Under the pieces are notes generated by a model. The model made no database searches. It was given only the letters and a program-made list of their open reading frames with translations, and was not told the DNA's origin. Shown here piece after piece: positions 42,982 through 44,346 of a stretch of 64,000 nt of DNA. The position numbers and the translations under genes are program-made. The first letter of the stretch is position 1, and every line of letters starts with the position of its first letter. The stretch comes from an uncultured Planctomycetota bacterium (lineage in GTDB: Bacteria; Planctomycetota; Phycisphaerae; Sedimentisphaerales; UBA12454): positions 1 through 64,000 of the forward strand of contig CAINDG010000013.1 in assembly GCA_903847315.1 (NCBI GenBank), in the 5' to 3' direction.

Positions 42982-43121
42982 ACCCCAGTTAGATAGTTTT
43001 TGAAAAATGTCAGATAGAGATGCCCTGCTGAAGTAGTTTTGAGTGGTTCGATGAAGCAACATAGAAACACTTCACAGGGTAAACTATCGCCCCGATGGGA
43101 TAGTTGCGACATCCCACGGGG
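42982..43121 (+). repeat. Cluster of palindromes upstream of the GIY-YIG remnant
   Basis: ACCCCAGTTAGATAG; CCCTGCTGAAGT/ACTTCACAGGG; AACTATC/GATAGTT; CCCCGATGGGA/TCCCACGGGG. Confidence 0.6.
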
Positions 43122-43147
43122 TAAACATCTCAATATAGGGAGTATTT

Positions 43148-43409
43148 ATGAATAAATTTTATTATGTGTATGTTTTGATATCGGAAAGACTGCAATTTTT
43201 ATATCGGCATAACAAGCGATATCAAAAAAAGATTAGAGGAGCATAATAGCGGTAAAGTTTCAACAACAAGGAACAGACGTCCATTAAAGCTGATTTACGG
43301 GGAAGGATGCCTGAATCAGCAGGATGCCGCCAAACGAGAAAAATATCTTAAAACAACGTGGGGCAAGAGATATATTAAAAGCAGATTGGAACAATATCTC
43401 AGTGCGTAA
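43148..43409 (+). pseudogene. GIY-YIG endonuclease, frameshifted
   Basis: Frame 1 MNKFYYVYVLISE; after ~43187 the next frame gives DCNFYIGITSDIKKRLEEHNSGKVSTTRNRRPLKLIYGEGCLNQQDAAKREKYLKTTWGKRYIKSRLEQYLSA*. Span is 262 nt (3n+1). Confidence 0.8.
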
Positions 43410-43447
43410 ACAGTCAAAAAAAATAGTGAAATCTTGTATGTTTTTGT

Positions 43448-43475
43448 TTGACTTTTGTTGAAAATATGGTAAAAT
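43448..43475 (+). promoter_or_regulatory. Putative sigma-70 promoter upstream of the HNH-AP2 gene
   Basis: TTGACT - 16 nt - TAAAAT. Confidence 0.4.
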
Positions 43476-43516
43476 ACCGATATAGTTGTGCGAAAAGTTA
43501 ATATTTTACATAAACC

Positions 43517-43537
43517 CTTATTCTTAAATAGAATAAG
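43517..43537 (+). repeat. Perfect small hairpin
   Basis: CTTATTC TTAAATA GAATAAG. Confidence 0.5.
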
Positions 43538-43546
43538 AGAATCTAA

Positions 43547-43602
43547 ACCCCAGTTAGATAGCTAAAGCATCTTCAAGAAGCTAACTAACGCATCTAACGG
43601 GG
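43547..43602 (+). repeat. Palindromic element, second copy of ACCCCAGTTAGATAG
   Basis: CCCCAGTTAGATAG ... CATCTAACGGGG outer stem with inner AGCATCTT/AAGAAGCT; the 15 bp are identical to 42982-42996. Confidence 0.6.
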
Positions 43603-43641
43603 CAAGCAAGTCCCAATTACCAAAAATACAAATTAATTAGA

Positions 43642-43670
43642 GGAACCCCGCCCACAGGTGGCGGGGCTAA
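43642..43670 (+). repeat. Left flanking hairpin of the HNH-AP2 gene
   Basis: GGAA CCCCGCC cacaggt GGCGGGG CTAA. Confidence 0.65.
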
Positions 43671-43692: not shown

Positions 43693-44346
43693 GTGTCCAA
43701 ATTAAATCTTCAAATCCCGTATCCAACGTTTATCGAAAATATCATCGTATATTTTCTGCTGCGCTATAGAAAAAAGCATTACGGCTTCGCATTTAGGAAA
43801 ATCAAACTTATAGGAGGGAAATTCGCCATCGTTGAACCTGAAGATTATGAAAAAATAAGCCAAGATGCCTGGCAACTTTATGATAACCATTATGGTAAAT
43901 ATTACGCGGTTCGAATTGAGGACTGCAAAATAGTATTTATGCACAGGCAGATTATGGGCCCATTCGACTGCGCTCAGGGTAGACAGAGATTAGTTGTCGA
44001 CCATCGGAACCGAGAGGGATTAGATAACAGAAAGAGCAATCTGCGACTGGCAACGCGGTCTCAAAATAACTGCAACAGGAAACAAATGCCGGGCAGCTCT
44101 AAATACAGAGGAGTAAGCTATTCGAAAAAAAGAAAAAAATGGAGGGCGGCTATAAGCTATAACGGAATATATAAACATTTAGGATATTTCGAAAGTGAAG
44201 AAGAAGCTGCGAGGGCGTATGACGCGGCTGCGAAGATTTATCATGGAGAATTTGCGACATTGAACTTCGCAGAGATAGAAACCCCCTTTAAAATACTCCC
44301 TTCGCTAACGCTTGGGCTCGGAACCCCCGGCAGAGCCGGGGGCTAA
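43693..44346 (+). CDS. HNH (HNH_3-type) endonuclease with C-terminal AP2 DNA-binding domain
   Basis: RLVVDHRNREGLDNRKSNLRLATRSQNNCNR; SKYRGVSYSKKRKKWRAAISYNGIYKHLGYFESEEEAARAYDAAAKIYHGEFATLNF. Confidence 0.9.
   Translation: MSKLNLQIPYPTFIENIIVYFLLRYRKKHYGFAFRKIKLIGGKFAIVEPEDYEKISQDAWQLYDNHYGKYYAVRIEDCKIVFMHRQIMGPFDCAQGRQRLVVDHRNREGLDNRKSNLRLATRSQNNCNRKQMPGSSKYRGVSYSKKRKKWRAAISYNGIYKHLGYFESEEEAARAYDAAAKIYHGEFATLNFAEIETPFKILPSLTLGLGTPGRAGG
43959..43987 (+). repeat. In-frame small repeat insertion encoding PFDCAQGRQ
   Basis: cccattcgactgcgctcagggtagacag between HRQIMG and RLVVDH in the HNH domain. Confidence 0.55.
44320..44346 (+). repeat. Right flanking hairpin of the HNH-AP2 gene; supplies the stop codon
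   Basis: GGAA CCCCCGGC aga GCCGGGGG CTAA, perfect 8-bp stem. Confidence 0.65.

Follow-up and report, generated by a model that had tools for sequence, protein, structure and literature searches.

The palindromes that surround a small GIY-YIG gene in the window (the whole 64-kb stretch of planctomycete DNA analysed) are probably non-autonomous, MITE/REP-like derivatives of a tiny element whose sole gene encodes a stand-alone GIY-YIG nuclease; this nuclease would bind the arms and cut, and the unit would rejoin. We put the probability of this reading at about 0.75. The sequences show mobility, defined ends, arm covariation, insertion and nesting, gene-less copies and spread across phyla. The original prediction had seen REP/RAYT-like logic with a GIY-YIG nuclease. 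The palindromes do behave as modules of a GIY-YIG mobile system, with hairpins upstream of relatives' genes, dispersed and nested copies and ends in common with a compact element, but the 15-mer proposed as the bracket of the unit did not stand.

Hairpin modules around the GIY-YIG gene

The 15-mer ACCCCAGTTAGATAG occurs in exact copies at 42982-42996 and 43547-43561, on both sides of the GIY-YIG remnant as predicted, and has 2 matches in the 64 kb when up to 2 mismatches are allowed (shuffles had a mean of 0.05, none reaching 2). Rather than bracketing one unit, each copy serves as the left arm of its own module (42983 and 43548). The 15-mer was thus rejected as a unit end and is the left arm of one module type.

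The frameshifted GIY-YIG gene has three hairpin modules (CCC..TAG / ..GGGGTAAA) around it (Table 1). Folding as single-stranded DNA gave z-scores of -4.7, -4.6 and -3.2 relative to dinucleotide shuffles, in agreement with the imperfect palindromes described earlier for the 15-mer copies. The recurring CA(G/C) motif was also recovered, as CA(C/G)GGGTAAAC-like strings at 43073-43084 (CACAGGGTAAAC) and 43115-43126 (CACGGGGTAAAC). The sequence of the 59-nt module has an identical copy at G000:C13:131528 and a near-identical one at C50:66080.

The gene itself was confirmed as a remnant: it has a one-base frameshift near 43188, its second part matches PF01541 from model position 11 on, and a protein search passes through one TGA. 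The window genome (2.44 Mb, 97% complete), which the names of its close matches suggest to be of the Phycisphaerae/Sedimentisphaerales type, carries nine small GIY-YIG genes in addition to uvrC. No Y1/RAYT transposase was found in it by a PF01797 search, and a RAYT was rejected as the mover on this basis. The plasmid collection contained no relative of the window nuclease.

Table 1. Features of the GIY-YIG locus, in window coordinates
Feature	Position	Strand	Remarks
Left arm CCCCAGTTAGATAG, TTAGAT-type module	42983..42996	+	Without its own right arm within 330 nt
GAGATG, left side of the conserved frame GAGATG[module]CTWWCGCATCTC preceding the GIY-YIG gene	43017..43022	+	Also in L060 and L061
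Gene-less 61-bp module CCCTGCTGAAGTAG..ACTTCACAGGGTAAA	43023..43083	+	Fold z -4.7; same position in G043 and G039
Gene-less 36-bp module CCCCGATGGGATAG..ATCCCACGGGGTAAA, inserted in CTATCG^CATCTCA	43090..43125	+	
GIY-YIG nuclease gene, window type, frameshifted	43148..43409	+	69-72% identical to the intact copy G000:C38:139784-140050
Right arm of the autonomous element, decayed, inside the ORF end: TATCTCAGTGCGTAA, compare TATCTCACGGGGTAA	43395..43409	+	Sequence comparison
Gene-less 59-bp module CCCCAGTTAGATAG..CATCTAACGGGGCAAG	43548..43606	+	Fold z -3.2

Palindromes are also present at a nearby gene of another kind. The window has only two ACCCC..GGGGCTAA palindromes, at 43645-43670 and 44323-44346, and they bracket an HNH_3/AP2 gene (43693-44346; chance 0.02). 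There are 23 HNH_3 matches in the genome, and similar palindromes adjoin a few of the others (L292, L299, L304, L306), not most.

Module family in the genome

The left-arm pattern CCCYRVTKRRRTAG occurs 40 times in the window genome, and a reversed control pattern not at all. Most copies are complete hairpins of 36-61 bp that start with CCC and end in GGGGTAAA or GGGGCAGG. There are five kinds of variable arm, and for 33 of the 40 left arms a right arm that matches follows within 90 nt, where random draw would give 27%. The genome's two window-type GIY-YIG genes (C13 and C38) have ten of the 40 arms within a distance of about 0.6 kb. It had been stated beforehand that palindromes not enriched near GIY-YIG genes, or occurring as generic intergenic repeats, would speak against the idea; this applies in part, as the other 30 modules lie away from the window-type genes, in the manner of REPs.

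Several copies are nested. In L022, one module sits inside another as CCCCGGTGAGATAGCCGAAGCGA[CCCCGATGGGATAG..GGGGTAAA]CATCTCACAGGG, and in two separate cases in L029 the insertion ..GACG[CCCC..GGGTAAA]CATCTAACGGGG splits a module that is seen unbroken elsewhere. Without the inner module the outer one reads exactly as it does when unbroken, and the target is not duplicated. The 36-bp module of the window (43090-43125) is itself found nested in other copies. The check for empty sites in relatives, suggested with the prediction, was positive: three other species lack this module at the homologous position, namely L060, from another family of the order (CTATCGCATCTCA), and L061 and L087 (CTTACGCATCTCA). 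Nesting together with exact empty sites therefore indicates mobile units of about 36-61 bp that leave no target duplication.

These data bear on the alternative that the hairpins are RNA-level elements (terminators, attenuators or RNA-processing sites) or generic intergenic repeats that lie near GIY-YIG genes by chance. The 30 modules away from window-type genes would fit it. Against it, ten modules cluster at two genes in a 2.4-Mb genome, modules precisely interrupt each other, and the units described below lie within coding genes and have arms almost free of G-T wobble pairs. We regard this alternative as very improbable.

Association with window-type nucleases in other genomes

The cross-genome search proposed earlier found the same hairpins upstream of window-type GIY-YIG genes in other species. 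In G000, G023, G039, G027 and G043 the modules immediately precede these genes, and the frame GAGATG[module]CTWWCGCATCTCAT is common to several loci of the closest relatives of the window nuclease, defined by at least 65% identity (G023, G039, G043, G027). G042 has a hairpin repeat of its own, one copy of which begins at the stop codon of the GIY-YIG gene.

Among 149 genomes of the order, 7 have both the hairpins and a close nuclease, 2 the hairpins only, 13 the nuclease only and 127 neither. Hairpin-rich genomes thus tend to carry a close nuclease (Fisher p = 8e-6, in a test that ignores phylogeny). The hairpin-rich G013 and G088 are nevertheless without a close window-type nuclease.

A compact element as the probable parent

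An alignment of the window-type nuclease was scanned against all GTDB species genomes, which gave 342 relatives. The best 80 were analysed; they were picked by similarity to the window nuclease and so represent one clade. These best 80 of 342 come from Planctomycetota, Bacteroidota, Rhodothermota, Verrucomicrobiota, Ignavibacteriota, Cloacimonadota, Myxococcota, Acidobacteriota, Neomarinimicrobiota, several Patescibacteria and others. Psychroflexus maritimus, Phaeodactylibacter xiamenensis and Tangfeifania diversioriginum are carriers that exist in culture.

At most of these loci the unit is minimal. The compact element identified in this way is about 280-300 bp long, and its sole gene encodes the stand-alone GIY-YIG nuclease. 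The left arm, CCC(C/T)GTNARATA, lies shortly 5' of the ATG and takes the forms CCCCGTGAGATA or CCCTGTTAAATA. The right arm, TAYYTNACRGGG-TRA, is made of the final codons of the ORF (..YLTG-stop), written as TAT CTC ACG GGG TGA or as TAT TTA ACA GGG TAA, and the inverted right arm TAYYTNACRGGGTRAA hence doubles as the last codons and stop codon of the nuclease. Good arms were present at 60 loci (from the best 80 of 342); the units there have a median length of 292 bp, and 45 of them have a right arm whose end is no more than 5 nt from the stop codon. An arm score of at least 24 was reached at the unit ends in 75% of the 80 loci, compared with 1.2%, 0% and 1.3% when the windows were shifted by 60-150 nt and 0.6% in shuffles. 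In the planctomycete copies, the simple compact layout is no longer visible.

In 51 units with clear arms, all 11 arm pairs are nearly always Watson-Crick. Pairs 7 (TA in 28, GC in 17 and CG in 6) and 9 (AT in 36 and GC in 15) vary without a single break. Only 1 of the 561 pairs is G-T, and this near absence points to selection on DNA ends, not on RNA. Judged from sequence, the autonomous element truly begins with CCC(C/T)G.. and finishes with ..(A/G)GGGTRAA, its right end falling within the 3' end of the ORF. As in MITEs, these ends recur in short dispersed copies, since CCCC..GGGGTAAA ends are common to the modules and the compact GIY-YIG unit.

The left flank of the 51 units favours TTYA but is variable (T36/T44/Y41/A42); the right-hand TRAA, which includes the stop codon, is steadier. 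Together with the nested cases, these flank preferences suggest cuts 5' of CCC and 3' of GGGTRAA, with TTYA being mostly a target preference. The exact cut sites are not fixed, because the junctions with host genes vary by 1-2 nt.

Insertion sites and movement of the compact element

Two pairs of copies show movement of the unit alone. L206 and L284, from the same genome, match at 87% identity over exactly 291 bp, beyond which they have nothing in common, and the same-genome pair L236/L242 is 92.6% identical over 326 bp and has only the unit in common. At several loci the host gene resumes on the far side of the unit. Tyrosine recombinase genes are interrupted in L225 (TTMIY^THV), L183 (TTMI^THV), L224 (LRV^KDVDF), L187 (QNQ(A)^ALVFLYREV) and L195 (GHS^), as well as in L191, L199, L205 and L249. 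Y1 transposase genes are the hosts in L207 (AWCL^MPNHFH), L238, and L189 and L181 (at a conserved QR(N/G)(Y/F) stretch). Other units lie in YhcG (L185, L192, L232), in ORF6N (L196, VNI^KIMRTF), in genes for 23S IVPs (L198, L213, L237), in a HepT-like gene (L209) and, in Patescibacteria, at the secD/secF (L202), atpD/atpC and folD junctions. The recombinase, YhcG, ORF6N, IVP, HepT and SecF assignments are backed by Pfam, and the Y1 pieces were assigned by motif only. Moreover, the protein tree of the nucleases mixes phyla, with 33 label changes for a minimum of 20 and a shuffled mean of 46.

An explanation by group I or group II introns was rejected: Rfam detected no such intron in the units of 14 loci, and the one group II match, at L183, lies 1.3 kb outside the unit.

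A free-standing homing endonuclease gene is a further alternative, in which the enzyme would cut intact alleles, repair would copy the gene in, and the arms would be by-products of the site. The nuclease does belong to a homing family (GIY-YIG, PF01541), and its domain is weakly similar to group I intron endonucleases (TIGR01453, below the cut-off). Some sites recur across lineages: the thioredoxin junction is occupied in both G043 and G031, and TTMIY^THV in both L183 and L225. Like the homing genes of the T4 Seg type, the element is a single small GIY-YIG gene invading genes and junctions. Insertion is however not confined to cognate alleles: the same inverted ends are found at many unrelated sites, both ends covary within each copy, and gene-less copies with these ends are dispersed and nested, none of which is a feature of Seg-type genes. 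Homing enzymes, in addition, do not recognise their own mobile DNA (PMC1564403). We therefore consider homing unlikely.

Other small GIY-YIG subfamilies

Inverted or direct repeats were also considered as one uniform rule for all small GIY-YIG genes. This was rejected, as the arrangements differ by subfamily. In a subfamily from the same order (L001, L140, L118, L128, L106, L123, L137), the gene is flanked by dRS3-like inverted pairs, GTCATTCCCGCG..GCGGGAATCCA before it and TGGATTCCCGC..GCGGGAATGAC after it. The dRS3-like repeat is present in 107 of 149 genomes of the order, and its presence is only weakly tied to the L001-type nuclease (23 of 25 genomes with a close nuclease vs 84 of 124 others); many genomes rich in the repeat are without this nuclease.

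Small GIY-YIG genes directly 3' of a tRNA or tmRNA were found at 31 of 103 loci, including tRNA-Asn (L139, L145, L085, L142, L073, L068), tRNA-Ser (L100, L102, L111, L127) and tmRNA (L008). Many of them have a partial copy of the tRNA or of the adjacent sequence 3' of the gene, which in one group starts from the stop codon. Six loci (L093, L096, L081, L069, L088, L089) are GIY-YIG units of about 300 bp with the inverted ends ATCCCGCACCTTC or ATCCCGTTAGACC, located mostly at operonic stop/start overlaps (TGA^ATG).

In G043, a gene of a related GIY-YIG type follows a thioredoxin gene as AAAGTGA[ATCCCGCACC..gene..GGTGCGGGA]TGAAAA, and the orthologous empty site, at a 96% identical neighbour in G039, reads AGATGAAAA. 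Finally, the GIY-YIG genes of L001/L140/L118 and of L106/L109/L121 have a position that is conserved between genera, either upstream of an argJ-like gene or after an rsfS-like gene according to the reading of the flanks. Part of the family is thus vertically inherited.

Comparison with known systems

In layout the system resembles REP/REPIN sequences and their RAYT (TnpA-REP). In both, short palindromes with conserved bulges are dispersed through the genome and also flank one nuclease gene, copies that lack the gene far exceed those that bear it, and arrays are nested. The nuclease is however of the GIY-YIG type here, in a genome with no HUH/Y1 transposase; the GTAG-type tetranucleotide at the foot of REP palindromes (PMC8266576) is missing, as the modules start with CCC and have TAG inside the loop side; and the inverted ends of the parent element are built into the gene.

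With the IS200/IS605 elements it shares a very small size, palindromic ends, and insertion without target duplication beside a preferred host tetranucleotide on the left (the junctions with host genes varying by 1-2 nt), the right one being carried by the element. It differs in that the only gene of the unit encodes a GIY-YIG rather than an HUH (Y1) enzyme, and in ends that are true mutual inverted repeats in a total of about 290 bp. The shared layout, as well as the hairpin-rich genomes that are without a close nuclease, could be taken to mean that the hairpins are moved by another enzyme, such as an IS200/IS605 or RAYT transposase, with the GIY-YIG gene as cargo or neighbour. Two observations make this quite unlikely: a Y1 transposase is absent from the 97% complete genome, and each unit has a single gene, into whose codons the right end is built in many phyla.

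The protein itself is of the same single-domain class as UPF0213 and prokaryotic Slx1-like proteins (PDB 1zg2, 1ywl; Slx1 4xlg). Stand-alone bacterial GIY-YIG domains are regarded as Slx1-like, vertically inherited repair nucleases (PMC1564403), whereas the gene described here belongs to a mobile unit with defined ends.

Proposed mechanism and significance

We read this as an IS-like mobile element in which a GIY-YIG nuclease takes the role of the transposase, the hairpins of the window being its MITE/REP-like offshoots. The nuclease would recognise and bind the paired arms and cut at the feet of the hairpin or cruciform, 5' of CCC and 3' of GGGTRAA. The freed unit, with or without the gene, would then join a new TTYA-like site, often within another copy. 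Insertion causes no target duplication and usually follows TTYA; the right TRAA is part of the element, and the left TTYA is mostly supplied by the target. The nuclease would act in trans on hairpins that lack the gene, as RAYTs do on REPINs. We infer that catalysis is the work of the GIY-YIG protein, with hairpin or cruciform DNA as its substrate; its relatives include the structure-specific nuclease Slx1 (PMC1564403), a kinship that fits the cutting of branched DNA.

We also lean slightly towards a broader view, in which these units form a class of transposable element in their own right. The whole transposition machinery would consist of a stand-alone GIY-YIG nuclease of about 85 residues, the end of the gene would be the end of an element of about 290 bp, and gene-less REP-like palindromes would be spawned from it. 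As further branches, the class would take in the other small GIY-YIG subfamilies, namely those with dRS3-like GTCATTCCCGC.. brackets and the tRNA-end and operon-junction types.

The open-access literature searched, with subscription papers and preprints outside its scope, contained no description of the element and no paper joining GIY-YIG proteins with REP, RAYT or inverted-repeat elements. Small GIY-YIG genes, presumed to encode repair nucleases, are common in bacterial genomes, as are dispersed palindromes of unknown origin. If a single GIY-YIG domain is indeed able to move DNA that lies between matching palindromic arms, transposition would gain an enzyme class, and few self-contained mobile elements would be as small as this unit of about 290 bp. 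The model further predicts that entry is common at short TTYA sites within recombinase and transposase genes, and the element would provide a testable source of REP-like repeats in genomes without a RAYT.
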